This document shows, in pieces, positions 582 through 10,380 of a DNA stretch of 40,548 nt (position 1 is the first letter of the stretch; every line of letters starts with the position of its first letter). The notes below the pieces were generated by a model that had not been told where the DNA came from, ran no database searches, and saw only the letters and a list, made by a program, of their open reading frames with translations. Both the position numbers and the translations under genes were made by a program. The DNA comes from Bacteroidota bacterium (lineage in GTDB: Bacteria; Bacteroidota; Bacteroidia; Bacteroidales; JAGONC01). The stretch spans positions 1 through 40,548 of the forward strand of contig JAPLDP010000061.1 of assembly GCA_026391695.1 (NCBI GenBank), written 5' to 3'.

Positions 582-2066
582 ATGACCGGAAAGAATATAG
601 TGAAAATCATCATCACATGTTTAATAGTGACATTCTCTTTTTATAGTCATGGTCAGGATATAACCAAAAAACTTACACTTGATGATGTTATTTATATCGC
701 AAAAAATCAATCTCCTGATGCACTTATTGCCAAACATAGGTTCCGCAGCAGTTACTGGCAATTCAGGACTTATAAGGCAGGATATAAACCCCTTGTCGAA
801 TTTGATGCTACCCTCCCCAACTTAAGCCGATCTATTGACGTCATTACACAACCCGATGGTACCGAAGTCTTCATCAGACGCCAGATTTCACGCTCCTCTG
901 TAAACCTTTCGGTATCACAAAACATTCCATTTACTGGGGGCCAAATCTTTATGAACACGAACCTCCAGCGGATAGATAATTTTGATGATTCCACATTTTC
1001 TTATCTCACTACGCCATTGAATATCGGTATACGGCAGCCTATTTTTGAATTTAACTCATTTAAATGGGATAGAAAAATTGAACCCCTGCGATATGAAGAG
1101 GCTAAGAGAAAATATTTGGAAGATATGGAACAGGTTTCCATTACTGCAACCAATTACTTCTTTGACCTTTTACTCGCACAGATTAACCTTAATATCCAGC
1201 TCGTCAACCAGGCAAACAATGATACTCTCTATCAGATAGCAAAAGGAAGGTATAATATCGGAACAATCGCCGAAAACGAACTTTTACAAATGGAGCTGAA
1301 CCTTCTTAATTCTAATACCAATGTCGAGGAAGCAAAGCTGGATCTGGAAATAAAATCATTCAACCTCAAATCCTATCTCAGGATTAAGGATACTCTCGGA
1401 ATAGAACTTGTACCTCCCGTTAAATCATACACAATCTCTGTGAACATTCAGGATGCTCTTTCTGAAGCCAGGGATAATCGTTCTGAGGCTCTTTCATTCA
1501 GCCGCCGCTTACTTGAAGCCCAAAGTGATGTCAGCAGAGCAAAACTTGAAGGAAGATTCAGCGCAAATCTTTATGCAGTTTATGGATTGACACAAAGCGG
1601 AGATTTTATTGATGAAGCCTATACTGCACCGCTTAATCAGGAACAGATTTCACTCGGCATTCAGGTACCTATTGTTGATTGGGGCTTATCAAAAGGAAAA
1701 ATAAAAATGGCCGAATCAAACCAGGAATTAATTAAAACATCTGTTGAACAGGATCAAATTGACTTTGACCAGGAAGTCTTTCTAAAGGTCATGCAATTCA
1801 ATATGCTAAGGAACCAGCTATCTATTGCAGCCAAAAGCGATACAGTTGCCCAGAAACGCTATGATGTAACTAAACAAAGATATTTGATCGGAACCATCAA
1901 TATTATAGAGTTAAACCTGGCTCAGACCGATAAGGATAATAACAGAAAAGCTTATATCAGCACACTTAATACCTATTGGAGAAACTTCTTTGAATTACGT
2001 AAACTGACACTTCATGATTATATTGAAAATAAGAAAATTACACTCGATTTAAATCAACTAATGTAA
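582..2066 (+). CDS. TolC-family outer membrane efflux protein
   Basis: This 494-residue protein is an outer-membrane factor of the TolC/OEP family, which forms the trimeric exit duct of tripartite efflux pumps. The N-terminus is a signal peptide (basic start, hydrophobic IIITCLIVTFSFYS, cleavage near GQD). The rest shows the two-fold OEP repeat: amphipathic helices rich in Leu, Asn and Gln (LAQINLNIQLVNQANNDTLY and IGTIAENELLQMELNLLNS in the first half; RYDVTKQRYLIGTINIIELN in the second), each followed by strand-like segments (FIRRQISRSSVNLSVSQN; EQISLGIQVPIVDWG). Its length is normal. It lies 32 bp after the MacB-like permease fragment on the same strand, so it probably serves that transporter. 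The substrate cannot be told from the sequence. Confidence 0.92.
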   Translation: MTGKNIVKIIITCLIVTFSFYSHGQDITKKLTLDDVIYIAKNQSPDALIAKHRFRSSYWQFRTYKAGYKPLVEFDATLPNLSRSIDVITQPDGTEVFIRRQISRSSVNLSVSQNIPFTGGQIFMNTNLQRIDNFDDSTFSYLTTPLNIGIRQPIFEFNSFKWDRKIEPLRYEEAKRKYLEDMEQVSITATNYFFDLLLAQINLNIQLVNQANNDTLYQIAKGRYNIGTIAENELLQMELNLLNSNTNVEEAKLDLEIKSFNLKSYLRIKDTLGIELVPPVKSYTISVNIQDALSEARDNRSEALSFSRRLLEAQSDVSRAKLEGRFSANLYAVYGLTQSGDFIDEAYTAPLNQEQISLGIQVPIVDWGLSKGKIKMAESNQELIKTSVEQDQIDFDQEVFLKVMQFNMLRNQLSIAAKSDTVAQKRYDVTKQRYLIGTINIIELNLAQTDKDNNRKAYISTLNTYWRNFFELRKLTLHDYIENKKITLDLNQLM

Positions 2067-2078
2067 GAAGTTAAGTTT

Positions 2079-2108
2079 TTTGTAATTTTACGGCATGTAA
2101 TAACTTTT
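2079..2108 (+). promoter_or_regulatory. Putative Bacteroidota-type promoter of the peroxiredoxin gene
   Basis: TTTG at 2079-2082 is followed after 18 bp by TAACTTTT at 2101-2108, which matches TAnnTTTG in 7 of 8 positions. The start codon lies 31 bp downstream. It would let the peroxiredoxin be transcribed independently of the efflux operon. Confidence 0.4.
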
Positions 2109-2139
2109 TTTACATTTATTAACCTAAAATATCAAGCAA

Positions 2140-2775
2140 ATGGCAGTATTAGTTGGTAAAAAAGCTCCCTTATTTGAAGCAGATGCCGTTGTAAACGGTG
2201 GAGAATTTGTCGAAAAATTTTCATTGGAGCAGTATATCGGGAAAAAATATGTTATCTTTTTTTTCTATCCCCTCGACTTTACTTTTGTATGCCCAACTGA
2301 AATCCTGGCATTTCAGGAAAAATTCGATGAGTTTGAGAAAAGAAATGTAGCTGTTATCGGATGCTCTATCGACTCGAAATTCTCGCACTGGGCATGGCTT
2401 AATACCGAAAAAAAGGACGGTGGAATTAAAGGTGTTAAATTCCCTCTGGTCTCTGACCTTTCTAAAACCATCTCCCAGAATTATGATGTTCTGGCTGGTG
2501 AATATGAATATAATACCGAAGATGATGAAATGGGCTTCAAAGGTACTCCCATTGCATACCGTGGCCTTTTCCTGATTGACAAACAAGGCATGGTGCGCCA
2601 CCAGCTAGTGAATGACCTTCCCCTTGGCAGAAATATCGATGAAGCTATCCGGATGGTCGATGCATTGCAGTTCTTTGAAGAATTTGGTGAGGTTTGTCCT
2701 GCAAATTGGCACAAAGGCGACGAAGCTATGAAAGCGACAGCAGATGGTGTAGCAAAGTACCTTAGTAAACATTAA
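2140..2775 (+). CDS. Typical 2-Cys peroxiredoxin (AhpC/Prx1 class)
   Basis: This 211-residue cytoplasmic enzyme reduces hydrogen peroxide and organic hydroperoxides. The peroxidatic site is FYPLDFTFVCPTE, with Thr48 and Cys51; the resolving cysteine is Cys186 in the C-terminal EVCPANW motif. Both cysteines and the length fit the typical 2-Cys (Prx1/AhpC) class, in which the partner is thioredoxin or an AhpF-like reductase. Neither partner gene is adjacent, so the reductant is unknown. The middle loop reads DGGIKG instead of the GGLG of over-oxidation-sensitive forms, and the C-terminus ends KYLSKH rather than with a YF motif, so a robust form is likely. The gene is separated by 73 bp from the TolC-like gene, appears to have its own promoter, and is convergent with mazG across a shared hairpin. 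Confidence 0.95.
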   Translation: MAVLVGKKAPLFEADAVVNGGEFVEKFSLEQYIGKKYVIFFFYPLDFTFVCPTEILAFQEKFDEFEKRNVAVIGCSIDSKFSHWAWLNTEKKDGGIKGVKFPLVSDLSKTISQNYDVLAGEYEYNTEDDEMGFKGTPIAYRGLFLIDKQGMVRHQLVNDLPLGRNIDEAIRMVDALQFFEEFGEVCPANWHKGDEAMKATADGVAKYLSKH

Positions 2776-2783
2776 ATTCAATC

Positions 2784-2833
2784 ATGAAGGATAAAGAATT
2801 CCATTCTGTATTTTTTATCCTTCATTTTTTTTT
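2784..2833. terminator. Bidirectional hairpin terminator between peroxiredoxin and mazG
   Basis: ATGAAGGATAAA at 2784-2795 pairs perfectly with TTTATCCTTCAT at 2814-2825. The 18-nt interval contains a smaller AGAAT/ATTCT hairpin. A run of nine T follows on the plus strand (2825-2833). The right arm contains the last codons and stop of mazG. Confidence 0.7.
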
Positions 2834-3588
2834 GCCTCATTCCAGTATATATCCATCTCACTGAGCGTCATATCCTTCAAGAACCTTCCATCCTTATCTA
2901 CTTGTTCTTCCATATAGTTGAATCTCCTGATAAATCTTCTGTTTGTCTTCTCTAAAGCATCTTCTGGATTGACTTTAATAAACCTGGCATAATTGACCAG
3001 GGCAAAAAGCAGATCCCCAAATTCATCCTCTATTTTATCTTTAGCGGAGCCTTCATTCACTTCTTTTAAAAGCTCATCTTTTTCTTCCATGACTTTCTCC
3101 CAAACCTGCCTTGGTTCTTCCCAGTCAAAACCTGCACCGCTGGCCTTTTCCTGAATTCTATATGCCTTTACAAGTGCAGGCAATGCATTGGGAACACCTC
3201 CAAGAACCGACCTGCGTCCTTCTCCCATCTTTATCTTCTCCCAATTGTTCCTGACATCCCGTGAATTCTGAACCTCTACATTACCATAAATATGTGGATG
3301 CCGCTTTATAAGCTTCTTATTGAGATCATTGATCACATCCCCAACATCAAAATCATTGGTCTCAGAAGCAATCTTCGAATAAAATACAATATGTAACATT
3401 ATATCTCCTAGCTCATTCTTTATCTCATTTATGTCTTTTACAAGGATGGCATCAGAAAGCTCATACATCTCCTCAATGGTAAGATGCCTCAAACTATCAA
3501 ACGTCTGCTCTTTATCCCAGGGGCATTTTGCCCTTAACTCATCCATAATTGTGAGCAATCTTTCAAAAGCATCCAATTTTTCTTTCAT
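2815..3588 (-). CDS. mazG: Nucleoside triphosphate pyrophosphohydrolase MazG
   Basis: MazG hydrolyses (d)NTPs to the monophosphate and pyrophosphate, cleaning the nucleotide pool and, in some bacteria, modulating (p)ppGpp levels. The 257-residue protein has the full-length two-domain form. The first domain starts with LLTIMDELRAKCPWDKEQTF and carries the EEMYELSDAI and ELGDIMLHIV metal-binding helices. The second domain has EEKDELLKEV and EDEFGDLLFALVNYARF. I chose the ATG at 3586-3588; a TTG eleven codons upstream is possible but adds a stretch not typical of the family. The stop codon sits inside the terminator stem shared with the convergent peroxiredoxin gene. Confidence 0.95.
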   Translation of the reverse strand: MKEKLDAFERLLTIMDELRAKCPWDKEQTFDSLRHLTIEEMYELSDAILVKDINEIKNELGDIMLHIVFYSKIASETNDFDVGDVINDLNKKLIKRHPHIYGNVEVQNSRDVRNNWEKIKMGEGRRSVLGGVPNALPALVKAYRIQEKASGAGFDWEEPRQVWEKVMEEKDELLKEVNEGSAKDKIEDEFGDLLFALVNYARFIKVNPEDALEKTNRRFIRRFNYMEEQVDKDGRFLKDMTLSEMDIYWNEAKKNEG

Positions 3589-3625
3589 CCGTAAATAATT
3601 TTTTAAGTTATACAATATCAACTAC

Positions 3626-3960: not shown

Positions 3961-5157
3961 TTGAACATTGGCAACTCCATAAGATCCCTTGGCATCTCCT
4001 GCATCTTAATATGGATGATTTTCATCCTCACAACTTCAAATCAGGTTTTTGCTGGAAGAGGTGATGATTATAAACGTCCTCCTAACAGATTTAAACATAA
4101 ACTTTACCGGTCAAATCTTTATTTAGAATGTAAATTATATTACGGCTTTATCGCTAATCATCATATTGGAATGGAAATATACAATAGCCATTTCCCGGCC
4201 ATTGAAATCAGCTTGGGTAAAGCCACTTATGGCCAACAGTTTTGGGAACAGATGTATAGTTATCCCGATATCGGTATCGTGTATTATCATTCAGGACTTG
4301 GCATATCTCCGTACCTTGGAACCGCCAATGCCCTCTTTCCATATATCAATTTTCCTATTATTAAAACAAAAACCATCACCATTGGATTTAGGCTTGGTGC
4401 AGGCATAGGCTATCTAACAAAAAAATTTGAAAGACTTGAAAATTTTAAACATCTGGCAATAGGTTCACATATTAATTTCGCAGGGAATCTGATGCTTGAA
4501 CTCAATTACAGACTTAATGATTTTTACTGGTTCACTGCCGGTCTAACATTGACCCATTTCAGCAACGGATCATTTAAGCTGCCTAATTATGGATTAAACG
4601 TACCAGCCATTTCAATAGGTCTACAACGTTTTTTTAACAGGCAAAACGTACCTATACAAAAAAGACTATATTCCCCGACCAAACCCTTTGATTTTGATAT
4701 CCACCGTATAATAGAATTTAATCTAACCGGTGTTTTCGGATTCAAAGATCTGCAAGCACTTGTTGGTAAAAAGTTTTTTGTTTACTCCCTGTTTGGTACC
4801 GCCCTTAAACAGATAAGTTATAAAAGCAAATTCGGTGGAGGTTTTGATGTTTCTTATGATGGATCTGATGAAAAAATACTGGAGAAAAATCATGTCATAG
4901 TAGAAAATAAATTTTCACTGATAAAAACAGGGTTGAATATTGCCTATCAGTTGGCTCTTGGAAAACTCGCTTTTGATTTTAACTACGGAATGTACCTCAG
5001 CGGAAAAGATCAGAGTGATGGATCTGTCTATCAGAAAGTATCGATAAAATATGATTTTTCTGAACATCTTTATGCCAACATTACACTTAAGGTTCACTGG
5101 GGTAGGGCTGATTTTATTGGTTGGGGAATGGGATATAAAATTAAATGGTACTATTAA
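3961..5157 (+). CDS. PagL-like outer membrane protein (acyloxyacyl hydrolase family)
   Basis: The 398-residue protein has a hydrophobic export signal (CILIWMIFILTTSNQVFAG) and is rich in alternating beta-strands, as in an outer-membrane barrel. The segment LTHFSNGSFKLPNYGLN (His199, Ser201, Asn202) matches the active-site region of PagL-type lipid A 3-O-deacylases, where a His and a Ser two residues later are catalytic. The Glu that completes the PagL triad is not seen at the expected spacing, where an Asn stands, so catalysis should not be assumed. It is more than twice as long as PagL; residues 235-398 form a second beta-rich part. The start is TTG at 3961; the ATG at codon 19 lies inside the signal and is less likely. 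The GIN-lipoprotein gene starts 2 bp after its stop, so the two are probably co-transcribed. Confidence 0.7.
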   Translation: MNIGNSIRSLGISCILIWMIFILTTSNQVFAGRGDDYKRPPNRFKHKLYRSNLYLECKLYYGFIANHHIGMEIYNSHFPAIEISLGKATYGQQFWEQMYSYPDIGIVYYHSGLGISPYLGTANALFPYINFPIIKTKTITIGFRLGAGIGYLTKKFERLENFKHLAIGSHINFAGNLMLELNYRLNDFYWFTAGLTLTHFSNGSFKLPNYGLNVPAISIGLQRFFNRQNVPIQKRLYSPTKPFDFDIHRIIEFNLTGVFGFKDLQALVGKKFFVYSLFGTALKQISYKSKFGGGFDVSYDGSDEKILEKNHVIVENKFSLIKTGLNIAYQLALGKLAFDFNYGMYLSGKDQSDGSVYQKVSIKYDFSEHLYANITLKVHWGRADFIGWGMGYKIKWYY

Positions 5158-5159
5158 CA

Positions 5160-5792
5160 ATGACCCTTCCTAAAATACATATCATCATTAAGTTAATTTT
5201 GAGCTTCCTATTTATATCCTGCGAAAAACTTGACCTTGGAGATTGTTTTAAAAACACAGGAAAGATCATTATCGAAGAAAGAAATGTGCCTGATTTTGAA
5301 TATATTGACCTTGCTGATAATGTCAACCTGATCATCACTCAGGATGTCCACTGTGGTATTAAAGTGGAGGCAGACGAAAACATTATGGGATCGATCATTA
5401 CAGATGTGCAGGATAAAAAGTTGACTATTAGAAATGAAAATACATGTGATTGGGTTAGAAACTATAATAAGGACATCGATATCTATCTTTCTGTCGCACA
5501 TCTTGTCAACATTTATTATAAGGCTTCAGGCAACATCATCAGTACCAACACAATAGTAAGCGATTCACTGAATATTGAGGTTTGGGATGGTTCAGGTTCC
5601 ATCGACCTGGATATTGCAACACAGAAATCAGTCCTTAGCCTCCATTATGGTACTGTTGATTTTAATATAAGAGGAACATCTAATGTTAATTATATCTATG
5701 CTTCCAGTTACGGGCCTTTCTACTGTCAGGATCTTATTACCCAATTCACATTCATGAATAACCGGGGATCCAACGACTGCTATGTCTATTGA
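5160..5792 (+). CDS. GIN-domain (DUF2807) lipoprotein, interrupted near its 3' end
   Basis: The protein has a lipoprotein signal ending LSFLFISC (Cys21) and a beta-helix-like body with the GIN/DUF2807 pattern: VPDFEYIDLADNVNLIITQD, VEADENIMGSI, LTIRNENTCDW, LNIEVWDGSGSIDLDI. This family of putative surface adhesin heads is common in Bacteroidota, usually annotated only as head GIN domain protein. I chose ATG at 5160 rather than 5145, because it gives a clean lipoprotein signal and starts 2 bp after the previous stop. The frame stops at TGA 5790-5792, but family-like sequence continues in the same frame to 5909 after a second stop (TAA 5805-5807), so this is a shortened 210-residue product of a 249-codon gene. 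It may still be exported; whether it folds is uncertain. Confidence 0.75.
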   Translation: MTLPKIHIIIKLILSFLFISCEKLDLGDCFKNTGKIIIEERNVPDFEYIDLADNVNLIITQDVHCGIKVEADENIMGSIITDVQDKKLTIRNENTCDWVRNYNKDIDIYLSVAHLVNIYYKASGNIISTNTIVSDSLNIEVWDGSGSIDLDIATQKSVLSLHYGTVDFNIRGTSNVNYIYASSYGPFYCQDLITQFTFMNNRGSNDCYVY

Positions 5793-5909
5793 ACTAAACA
5801 ACTGTAAGTCGAAATTGAAAACATCGGCAATATTTATTATAAAGGAAATCCGGAAATAATAAAGACAAAAATCACAGGCACAGGACAGTTAATAAAACTG
5901 GACAAATAG
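5793..5909 (+). pseudogene. Detached C-terminal end of the GIN-domain gene
   Basis: Downstream of the TGA at 5790-5792, the same frame reads TKQL, TAA (5805-5807), then VEIENIGNIYYKGNPEIIKT and KITGTGQLIKLDK before TAG at 5907-5909. The run of short strands with Gly at turns (GNIYYKGNP, GTGQL) continues the repeat pattern of the GIN domain and looks like its normal ending. No start codon precedes it, so it is unlikely to be translated alone. Confidence 0.65.
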
Positions 5910-5953: not shown

Positions 5954-7276
5954 ATGAAAAACTCCATCCAACACCTCACCATAAGAGTGACGATACCTGC
6001 CATTATTCTTATTCTGATGTTTGTATCAATGAATATTAACCTCAGTAAGGATTATTCAAAAGGGATCATTGAATCAGATGGAAAGGGATACTATGCCTAT
6101 TTACCGGCAGTTTTTATATATAAGGATTTGAACTTTGGCTTCTTCGATTCCATCGAAATGGTGAAATATTATAAAAAAGATCTCTTTTACGATTACAGGT
6201 ATACATATAATGGATATGTCATCAATAAATATTATGCTGGAACAGCTCTCTGCCTGGCACCCTTTTTCATTCTTGGACATGCCATTACCCTTCTTTCCCA
6301 CAATACTCCAGATGGCTATTCAAAGTATTATACTCTCATGCTGCAGATTGGGGTGATTTTCTATTTAGCACTTTCACTTTATTTTCTTAAAAAGCTTTTA
6401 AGTTTATATCACCTCCGGGATGGCTATGTTTCTCTGATACTTTTTTCTCTTGTGTTCGGCACCAACCTCTTCTATTATACAATTATCGAATTCTCTATGT
6501 CGCATGTATATTCTTTCGCCTTTATTACCATGTTCTTGTATTTTTTGAAGAGATATTTCACCAACTATGACAAAAGAAGTCTTCCCCTACTTGGCGCCCT
6601 GCTTGGAATAATCGCACTTATCCGACCCGTCAATCTCCTGATTATATTCATTACCCCGTTTATGGCCGACCAGTTATCTCATCTCACTCAGGGATTAAAA
6701 TCAACCTTCAAAAGCTACCCTTTCCTGTTTTTGGGAATCACTTTTTTTTTATTGATTTTCGGAATACAATTTATTATCTATTTGATTCAAACCGATCATT
6801 GTTTAATTTATTCTTATGCTAATGAAGGATTTAATTTTTTGAGACCACAGATTATTAAAATCCTGTTCAGTTATAAAAAAGGCTTATTTGTTTATACACC
6901 GTTGCTCCTCATCTCACTGGCTGGGGGGTATTTTTTATTCAGAAAAAATATATACCAATTTTTTTCTCTCTTTGCTTTTCTGGGGCTTATCATATTCGTT
7001 TTTTCTTCCTGGTGGATGTGGTATTATGGAGGTAGTTTTTCTTCCAGGGTTTTTATCGAGTATTATTCAGTATTTGCAATATTACTAGGGCTGACTCTCG
7101 AAAATCTTAGATCAAGAATCTGTAGGGTAATGTATATTTCTCTCATCGTGATATTTATCCTGGTATGTCAGATCCAAACATATCAATACCGCTACAACAT
7201 CATTCATTGGTCTGAAATGAACAAGAATACATACTGGGATGTATTCCTCCGAATTGATCAATTACTAAAAAAGTGA
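5954..7276 (+). CDS. Multi-pass membrane protein, GT-C glycosyltransferase-like
   Basis: The 440-residue protein has about ten hydrophobic helices and a large loop after the first helix. That loop holds ESDGKGYYAYLPAVF, an acidic/aromatic region placed where GT-C fold glycosyltransferases (dolichyl- or undecaprenyl-phosphate-sugar dependent) have their catalytic Asp. Further features are MSHVYSFAF, ALIRPVNLL and SWWMWYYGGSFSSRVFIEYY, patterns common in Bacteroidota proteins annotated as glycosyltransferase family 39-like or only as membrane protein. No soluble domain is present. It follows the interrupted GIN gene by 44 bp after the end of its extended frame, so it may belong to the same transcript. 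It converges with proS with only 2 bp between the stops. The sugar donor and acceptor are unknown. Confidence 0.6.
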   Translation: MKNSIQHLTIRVTIPAIILILMFVSMNINLSKDYSKGIIESDGKGYYAYLPAVFIYKDLNFGFFDSIEMVKYYKKDLFYDYRYTYNGYVINKYYAGTALCLAPFFILGHAITLLSHNTPDGYSKYYTLMLQIGVIFYLALSLYFLKKLLSLYHLRDGYVSLILFSLVFGTNLFYYTIIEFSMSHVYSFAFITMFLYFLKRYFTNYDKRSLPLLGALLGIIALIRPVNLLIIFITPFMADQLSHLTQGLKSTFKSYPFLFLGITFFLLIFGIQFIIYLIQTDHCLIYSYANEGFNFLRPQIIKILFSYKKGLFVYTPLLLISLAGGYFLFRKNIYQFFSLFAFLGLIIFVFSSWWMWYYGGSFSSRVFIEYYSVFAILLGLTLENLRSRICRVMYISLIVIFILVCQIQTYQYRYNIIHWSEMNKNTYWDVFLRIDQLLKK

Positions 7277-7278
7277 AG

Positions 7279-8754
7279 CTAATATGCTCTGGCAAAAACG
7301 ACTCTTTGCTTTGATGGCCTTCCTGAATATACACACTTACCAGGTTCCGGATTGTCATCAAACGGTATCACACGGATAGTGGCTTTAGTATCTTCTTTGA
7401 TTGCAATCTCTGTTTCAGAAGTGCCATCCCAATGAGCCATCAGGAATCCTCCTTCGTTTTCGATAATCTCTTTGAACTCATCCCAGGAATTAACAATATG
7501 AGTATTGTTTTCACGGTATGATAAAGCTCGCTCATACAACTTCTGCTGAATCTGAACAAGAAGATGTTCAATCTTATTTTCAATATCGGTAATCTGAAAT
7601 GTCTCTTTTTCTAAAGTATCCCGCCGGGCAATTTCAACAGTATTATTTTCCATATCACGCGGACCTATTGCCAGGCGAATAGGAATACCTTTAAACTCAT
7701 ATTCAGTGAACTTCCATCCCGGTTTATATGAATCCCGTGCATCATATAATACGCTTATGCCTTTCTTTTCAAGTGCTTCCTTTATCCTGAACGCCCGTTC
7801 AGATATCAGAGAAAGTTGATCGGTCTTATTATAGATCGGAACAATAACAACCTGTGTAGGTGCCAGTTTGGGGGGAATAACAAGTCCATGATCATCAGAA
7901 TGAGACATGATCAGTGCTCCCACTAAACGTGTAGAAACTCCCCAGGATGTTGCCCAGACATAATCCAACTTGTTTTCCTTGTTTAAAAACTTTACATCAA
8001 ATGCCTTGGCAAAATTCTGACCAAGGAAATGGGATGTTCCCGTCTGAAGCGCCTTACCATCTTGCATTAAAGCCTCAATACCATATGTATCAACAGCACC
8101 AGCAAAACGTTCATTTGGAGATTTAACACCTTTTATTACTGGGATGGCCATCCATTTTTCTGCAAAATCTGAATATATATTCAGAATCAGTTCGGCTTCC
8201 TTTACAGCTTCCTCTTGTGTGGCATGAGCTGTGTGACCTTCCTGCCAAAGAAATTCAGTAGTCCTGAGAAACAATCGTGTCCTCATTTCCCAACGCACGA
8301 CATTGGCCCACTGATTAATAAGAAGAGGCAAATCACGGTATGACTGTATCCAATTACGGTAAGAGTCCCAAATAATTGTTTCAGAAGTAGGTCTTATGAT
8401 CAACTCTTCTTCAAGCTTTGCTTCCTCATCCACAATAATTCCACTTCCATCATCGGCATTTTTCAACCGGTAATGAGTAACCACAGCACATTCTTTGGCA
8501 AATCCTTCAACATGGCTGGCCTCCTTGCTAAAAAATGATTTGGGTATTAAAAGAGGGAAATAGGCATTGGAATGACCTGTGTCCTTGAACATTTTATCAA
8601 GTGCGGCCTGCATGCCTTCCCATATAGAATAACCATAGGGTTTTATTACCATGCAACCTCTGACAGCCGAATTCTCTGCAAGGCCGGCCCTGATTACCAG
8701 GTCATTGTACCACTGGGCATAATTTTCTTCTCTTGATGCAAAATCTTTAGCCAT
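7279..8754 (-). CDS. proS: Prolyl-tRNA synthetase (eukaryote/archaeal type)
   Basis: This class II aminoacyl-tRNA synthetase charges tRNA-Pro with proline. At 491 residues it belongs to the shorter eukaryote/archaeal-type branch (ProS type 3), which lacks the editing insertion of E. coli-type enzymes and is usual in Bacteroidota. Visible signatures are [16 protein letters not shown] near the N-terminus, the motif 2 region [20 protein letters not shown] with EGHTAH, the motif 3 region ([20 protein letters not shown]), the anticodon-binding domain beginning [11 protein letters not shown], and the C-terminal zinc-domain-like part ending VVFARAY. The ATG at 8754 gives the usual [20 protein letters not shown] start. 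The gene stands alone, divergent from the aromatic-rich lipoprotein gene. Confidence 0.97.
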
Positions 8755-8895
8755 ATGTTATTTGTGGTATAATATTTGCTAAAATTACACTGTTCTTTCA
8801 AAATCTGAAAGTGCTGAATGAGGGGCAAATTTAAAGATTTATTAAAAATGAATCTGATTCAGACAAAAATATATAAAAGTATGGAGGATAAAATC

Positions 8896-10380
8896 ATGAA
8901 AACCTTAGTATTATTCATTTCCCTAGCTGCTCTATTTCTGGCCTCATGTTCATCAACCTATTATTCGTCTAATAAACCAATTTATGATGACGTCTATTAT
9001 TCGGCCAAAGTGGTTCAACCAATTCCTCAGCAAACCTATACTCCCACTGAAGTAGTCACAGCAAATAATGAGCCTGAAGATGAATATATTACTGATGATA
9101 CCATTTACGAAACATATGAACCCGCATATTCTGAATCGGAAACTTATACCGATCCTAATGGTACTACATATATCACGAATAACTATTACTCCGATTTGGA
9201 GTATGCCTCCAGACTCAGAAGATTCTATCAGCCATACTGTTTCGATAGTTACTACTGTAATTACTATACTGATCCCTTTTATTATGATCCCTGGTACTCT
9301 GGGTTGAATATGTCCTTGGGCTTTAACTGGGGATGTGGCTCTATCGGTTGGGGATGGGGCTATCCTTCATATAGTTATTACCCGCCATTCTATTGGGACT
9401 CTTGGTATAATCCTTATTATGGATGGGGTTGGCCATCATATGGATACGGCAGTTACTGGAATGGATATTGGGACGGCTATAATGATGGCCTTTGGGTCGG
9501 AAGTCATTATTATGATAATTATAATGACTATGCTTCCCTTTATTATGGGCCTAGATTATCAAACAGCAGTAATAACAGCACAGATTACAGAGGTAGAAAC
9601 AACAGCGGAAGTGATCAAAATTCCAATATTAGCATACCTGGACGGACAGGTTCAGAACAGGTGTCATCAAATCTTAGAGGTATCGCCAGCTCAGAAACTT
9701 ACTCAGAAACCAAAACTTCTGACAATTCCAATGCATCAGAAAATTCACGCGCTTCTAAAAGCGCCGAAACGAATAATAATCCAATACTTTCGAGCCGCAA
9801 CAATACTTCGGTGGAAACAGAAAAACCCGACATTAGCCCTGTCCAGAACATAAACAATGCAAGGGAAAGCAAAGAAATTTACCAAGACACCAGACAAAAA
9901 CCCTCATACACTAAACCAGCAGCCGAACAAAGAGGTGTTAAAGAAAATCAGAGTCCGATTAACCGGTACGAAAATAATAACCAAATAAGTAAACAAATAC
10001 AGCAGAATTCAGTAAAAACTTACCGTTCTCCGCAATATACTAAACCAAAATCCAGCCAGGAATATAATTCACCCAGATCTGGAAACGTAAAAAATTACTC
10101 TGAGCCTAAACAAAATACAAATTCCACTGCTCCACAACCGAAAAGAAGCTATGAATCAAAAGGGACGGTACAGAAACAATCGGGTAATTTAAACAATTCA
10201 AAACCAGTTCAGTTCAACAACAAAAGTTATTCACCACCGACACCTTCTAATAGCAGGAGCATTTCTACTCCTTCCCGCTCAGGCAGTAACTATTCCGCTC
10301 CCTCCAGGTCATCCGGTGGAAGCAGTTCATCACCTTCCCGTTCAAGTTCTGGATCATCCAGTGGCGGAAATAGAAGGTAG
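8896..10380 (+). CDS. Lipoprotein with aromatic-rich and Ser/Asn/Gln-rich low-complexity regions
   Basis: I do not recognise a family. The 494-residue product starts with a clear lipoprotein signal, MKTLVLFISLAALFLASC, with lipidation at Cys18; this decides the start at ATG 8896 rather than the in-frame ATGs upstream. Residues 95-220 are dominated by Tyr, Trp, Gly and Pro (for example YYPPFYWDSWYNPYYGWGWP), with several Cys (CFDSYYC, WGCG). From about 221 to the end the chain is rich in Ser, Asn, Gln, Pro and Lys and probably disordered, finishing in Ser/Gly repeats (SSSGSSSGGNRR). This suggests a surface-attached lipoprotein whose tail may interact with peptidoglycan, polysaccharide or other proteins. 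The OmpP1/FadL-like gene follows after 55 bp and may be co-transcribed. No function is claimed. Confidence 0.75.
   Translation: MKTLVLFISLAALFLASCSSTYYSSNKPIYDDVYYSAKVVQPIPQQTYTPTEVVTANNEPEDEYITDDTIYETYEPAYSESETYTDPNGTTYITNNYYSDLEYASRLRRFYQPYCFDSYYCNYYTDPFYYDPWYSGLNMSLGFNWGCGSIGWGWGYPSYSYYPPFYWDSWYNPYYGWGWPSYGYGSYWNGYWDGYNDGLWVGSHYYDNYNDYASLYYGPRLSNSSNNSTDYRGRNNSGSDQNSNISIPGRTGSEQVSSNLRGIASSETYSETKTSDNSNASENSRASKSAETNNNPILSSRNNTSVETEKPDISPVQNINNARESKEIYQDTRQKPSYTKPAAEQRGVKENQSPINRYENNNQISKQIQQNSVKTYRSPQYTKPKSSQEYNSPRSGNVKNYSEPKQNTNSTAPQPKRSYESKGTVQKQSGNLNNSKPVQFNNKSYSPPTPSNSRSISTPSRSGSNYSAPSRSSGGSSSSPSRSSSGSSSGGNRR

Follow-up and report, generated by a model that had tools for sequence, protein, structure and literature searches.

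We regard the GIN/DUF2807 lipoprotein gene of the window (i.e. the whole stretch of 40 548 nucleotides analysed) as a recently inactivated, or still segregating, gene that decayed after a duplication, a reading to which we assign a probability of roughly 68%. The gene carries two in-frame stop codons close to its 3′ end followed by a conserved tail, a combination that can mimic recoding, yet one that recent loss beside an intact paralogue would explain. It would thus represent ordinary gene decay, with no novel decoding of stop codons, as well as a minor example, from a Bacteroidales-like lineage, of reciprocal gene loss in the wake of a segmental duplication; neither lesson is surprising. The gene and its surroundings comprise the following features:

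2815–3621, minus strand: mazG, an open frame, part of whose N-terminal region is duplicated, and decayed, beside the GIN gene of contig C55.
3961–5157, plus strand: PagL-domain protein, an open frame and conserved upstream neighbour.
5160–5792, plus strand: GIN/DUF2807 lipoprotein gene, truncated frame, with an alternative upstream ATG at 5145.
5220–5222, plus strand: Cys codon of the presumed lipobox (residue 21 counted from ATG 5160).
5790–5792, plus strand: first premature stop, TGA (Cys in the five closest homologues).
5805–5807, plus strand: second premature stop, TAA (in the five closest homologues Glu in four and Gly in one).
5808–5909, plus strand: remainder of the C-terminus, in frame, family-like and closed by TAG, recognized by frame, profile, alignment and the differences within the tail.
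5954–7276, plus strand: protein of 440 amino acids with no Pfam match, multi-pass membrane by eye, a conserved downstream neighbour in four same-family genomes.

The initial annotation had placed a TGA at 5790–5792, a TAA in the same frame at 5805–5807 and a 33-codon tail running to 5907–5909, and these coordinates were borne out: 33 open, family-like codons follow the TAA and end in a TAG at 5907–5909. A frameshift was rejected, as that annotation had maintained, because one frame of 249 codons holds the body, both stops and the tail, and is open again after the second stop. Of the two candidate starts, ATG 5145 and ATG 5160, the latter is more likely, since the pagL frame extends past the former, to 5157, and since homology to four same-family genes starts at residues 12–18. 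Using an approximate weight for two stop positions, a random pair of stops would lie five codons or fewer apart with a chance of about 3.6%, and both would fall within the last 39 codons with a chance of about 4.2%. The closeness of the two stops is mildly, not strikingly, unusual, and the late position of both lends modest support to an initially tolerated truncation.

Homologues were sought in 60 genomes (59 besides that of the window), and matches were obtained in 40, its own included. The alignment comprised 18 loci, i.e. a second copy from the same assembly on contig C55, the best match in each of 11 other genomes and six further loci, L012 and L049 being the same in sequence, so that 17 loci are distinct. 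Both stop columns are occupied by sense codons in all 18 (17 distinct), in each of which the frame continues and the tail is kept, and neither stop is conserved across species (0/18). Because all of these loci have sense codons there and read on, the length to 5909 is the DUF2807 family norm, and a natural end of the gene at the first stop is ruled out. Stops at the sense codons of homologues together with a collinear remainder, the criterion for a nonsense pseudogene, were thus found against all 18 loci. Related genomes do contain the uninterrupted gene: a homologue of 244–258 residues occupies the same neighbourhood in all four other same-family genomes, where the common gene order is mazG, pagL, GIN, membrane protein and proS (the last presumably so, being named from its sequence). 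Stops inside the profile match were found in one of the 30 listed same-family matches (some genes being listed twice), namely the window gene, and in none of the 150 best-scoring order-wide matches listed, among which the window gene does not figure. A candidate for a second broken gene, G020:C481, was rejected, as its first match contains stops, yet the domain forms an uninterrupted frame of 241 codons. No same-genus genome was present among the 60 searched or among the five family-wide genomes (own included), and a scan of viral contigs yielded three partial matches with 28–29% identity. Further along the window, the protein encoded at 8818–10380 (plus strand) is rich in Tyr, Gly, Ser and Asn and 34–37% identical in four same-family genomes, and its neighbour at 7279–8754 is 80–81% identical in four same-family genomes.

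The PF10988 profile matches 5292–5852 across both stops (profile positions 1–181), scoring 102 bits when read through and 76.3 bits when truncated (curated cut-off 24.2); without the tail the match stops at profile position 160 of 181. With TGA and TAA inside it, a complete DUF2807/GIN domain is not encoded without interruption. The Cys at residue 21, invariant in a seven-row alignment, presumably belongs to a lipobox, whose motif we take it to fit. The AlphaFold model of the read-through form, built on the same number of alignment rows (mean pLDDT 84.9), is a predicted beta-helix with strands 214–219, 225–228, 233–238 and 244–246 past the first stop. The earlier statement that the shortened protein lacks only the last turn of the domain was roughly right; expressed in strands, the predicted loss is that of four at the C-terminal end of the beta-helix. 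The best solved match of this model was 3pet (BF0245 of Bacteroides fragilis; Foldseek E-value 1.9e-13, TMq 0.78, 24% identity), a putative adhesin, and PGN_1547 of Porphyromonas gingivalis, also a DUF2807 protein, is reported to be an adhesin needed for biofilm formation and attachment (PMC10949514). By analogy with these two proteins, the normal product would be a beta-helix attached to the cell surface by a lipid anchor, probably acting as an adhesin.

Between the window and C55 copies, the 33 codons of the tail display 18 synonymous and four nonsynonymous differences, and the 193 codons of the body 98.6 and 75.4, respectively, with synonymous sites saturated. Judged from these sequences, the tail appears to have evolved as protein until recently. 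In the main codon model (eight sequences, with the window and C55 copies set as sisters), omega on the window branch was 0.062 for the body and 0.020 for the tail, compared with 0.041 and 0.035, respectively, on the remaining branches; the two parameters improved lnL by 0.91 units. When either of two alternative topologies was used, or C55 was omitted, window omega was 0.068–0.078 (body) and 0.032–0.049 (tail) over backgrounds of 0.043 and 0.035–0.038, with gains of 0.25–0.57 lnL units. Body omega on the window branch exceeded the background in each run, not significantly, and no relaxed selection on this branch was detected by the codon models over the three topologies and the run without C55. 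With limits set at a cost of 2 lnL units and interpolated between grid points, a final neutral phase could have spanned, in substitutions per codon, at most about 0.24 (whole gene) or 0.16 (tail only) in the main run and about 0.38 or 0.30, respectively, in the other runs, the limits being equivalent to roughly 0.05–0.13 substitutions per site. The number of stops expected is 1.6–2.4 at 0.16–0.24 substitutions per codon and 0.6 at 0.06, and two stops are within the yield of a short neutral phase. The intact branches L037 (the C55 copy) and L010, used as controls, allowed similar neutral phases, L010 even preferring one of 0.06 per codon by 1.5 lnL units; because intact controls behave alike, the test bounds the age of a loss and is no proof of it. 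That the tail still looks intact says no more than that a loss, if there was one, happened recently.

The main rival to recent inactivation is a tolerated truncation, according to which the cell still produces a useful lipoprotein of 210 residues, the first stop having shortened the beta-helix and the second having arisen in a tail that was by then neutral. We judge this unlikely, at somewhat less than one chance in five. The late position of both stops and the uninterrupted body with its low omega speak for it, as does the model of the truncated form (mean pLDDT 81.4), which is predicted to keep most of the fold, with strands up to residue 201, and these points weigh against inactivation to the extent that a gene free of frameshifts with both stops in its last 39 codons also suits a tolerated truncation. 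The same model, however, frays at its new end, where the pLDDT of block 201–210 falls from 91 to 55 and strand 207–210 is lost; the tail is kept in all 18 aligned loci and so normally matters; and neutrality confined to the tail is limited to at most about 0.16–0.30 substitutions per codon.

Recent inactivation finds its setting in the second close GIN copy of the assembly, which lies on C55 (9843 bases), is uninterrupted and is 68–70% identical. Beside it is a decayed N-terminal piece of mazG that contains stops (L037, G000:C55, 6549–6689, plus strand, just upstream of the intact paralogue) with no pagL between, while mazG and pagL are both open in the window. Also on this contig are two similar tandem genes at 7461–8385 and 8545–9816 (plus strand), the second open with 423 residues and the first broken into two overlapping frames of 277 and 176 residues, so that it looks frameshifted, and a 137-residue frame at 1925–2338 (minus strand) that looks similar by eye to the N-terminal region of a site-specific integrase. 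The tetranucleotide distance of C55 was 0.129 to the genome of the window, the nearest of six, and 0.148 to the next, G002; the former value is within the spread of the fragments of the window's genome (0.103–0.298), and a leave-one-out check placed 20/20 fragments of that genome and 32/42 overall correctly (two G009 fragments being left out). Its G+C content is 0.354, compared with 0.416 ± 0.029 in the window's genome (20 fragments) and 0.374 in G002 (four fragments). Binning and composition make it likely that C55 comes from the same organism as the window, although it might be misbinned because its G+C content is low and its distance to G002 not much larger. In the best protein tree the window copy falls, weakly supported (49/66), with the four same-family genes, and a sister relationship of the C55 and window copies was neither shown nor rejected by it (p-AU 0.326); the codon model favours this relationship by about 5–6 lnL units.

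The two copies are most simply accounted for by an old duplication of the segment followed by reciprocal loss. Duplication of a mazG–pagL–GIN segment would have produced them, the C55 copy then retaining GIN, with pagL absent and mazG reduced to a piece, and the window copy, at the conserved position, retaining mazG and pagL. The intact GIN paralogue would have made the window GIN dispensable, and it may then have acquired two nonsense changes close to its 3′ end. We infer that redundancy permitted this loss and that the product of the window GIN is non-functional.

Less probable than a tolerated truncation, at about one chance in eight, is that the stops are an artefact of consensus or base calling, or a minority strain allele of a draft assembly. 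The 95 contigs and estimated contamination of 1.02% leave room for such an error, but the gene is placed 5 kb into its contig and two substitutions would be needed, both to stops, when a random substitution here creates a stop in about 4% of cases.

Among 31 ORFs of the window, chosen by hand from the 58 listed (the window gene and overlapping and short frames being left out), 19 end in TAA, six in TGA and six in TAG, in keeping with the earlier claim that other genes here use TGA and TAA as normal stops. Neither SelB nor tRNA-Sec was found above curated cut-offs in the genome (97.11% complete; 150 of 219 first-look tRNA-Sec candidates scored), the best matches below them reaching 183.7 bits (cut-off 242.25) and 44.6 bits (cut-off 47), respectively; the 44.6-bit site (C4) was typed as tRNA-Ser by ARAGORN. 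A tRNA scan (150 of 209 candidates scored) gave 44 matches, none of the 43 typed having anticodon TCA or TTA and the 44th containing, by eye, neither triplet in its central part. This 44th match, the 94-base tRNA-like L108 (G000:C31:79864–79957, minus strand; 39.5 bits), left without a type by ARAGORN, is possibly a degenerate or insert-bearing tRNA. TAA is no selenocysteine codon. Selenocysteine or suppressor decoding was rejected because no machinery was found above the cut-offs and neither anticodon among the typed tRNAs, which upholds the view of the initial annotation that selenocysteine or a code change is unlikely. That annotation had offered recent inactivation, a local polymorphism and some form of recoding side by side: inactivation by point changes fits best, and recoding is disfavoured by stop usage and by the lack of machinery above the cut-offs. 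Programmed or tolerated read-through or recoding of the two stops is very improbable in spite of the conserved tail, of a TGA standing at a column with Cys in the five closest relatives and of the finding that in-frame stops under purifying selection are widespread in bacteria, since two serial stops multiply the loss and since the same study finds such stops mostly short-lived (Belinky et al., 2021; PMC7918605). A regulated switch of low-level read-through, yielding mostly the truncated lipoprotein with a trace of full-length form and a tail under selection, is slightly more improbable still.

Among the matches listed for literature on DUF2807/GIN, in-frame stops and pseudogenes, no title concerned the window gene. 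The encoded protein resembles DUF2807/head GIN proteins (PF10988) in its whole-domain profile match, lipobox-like Cys and beta-helix model; it differs from them in that its gene has two premature stops and its predicted product stops short of the four final strands. Segmental duplication followed by reciprocal loss is a general concept, with which the present case agrees in that the window keeps mazG and pagL and C55 keeps GIN, whereas the same-organism status of C55 is inferred here from binning and composition only. The stops described by Belinky et al. (2021; PMC7918605) are like those of the window gene in lying in frame without a frameshift, amid dN/dS below 1 and with a short life, and unlike them in that the window gene has two, in one genome, with no second species carrying the same stop. 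In time scale the window gene fits their pattern, and special decoding is unneeded.
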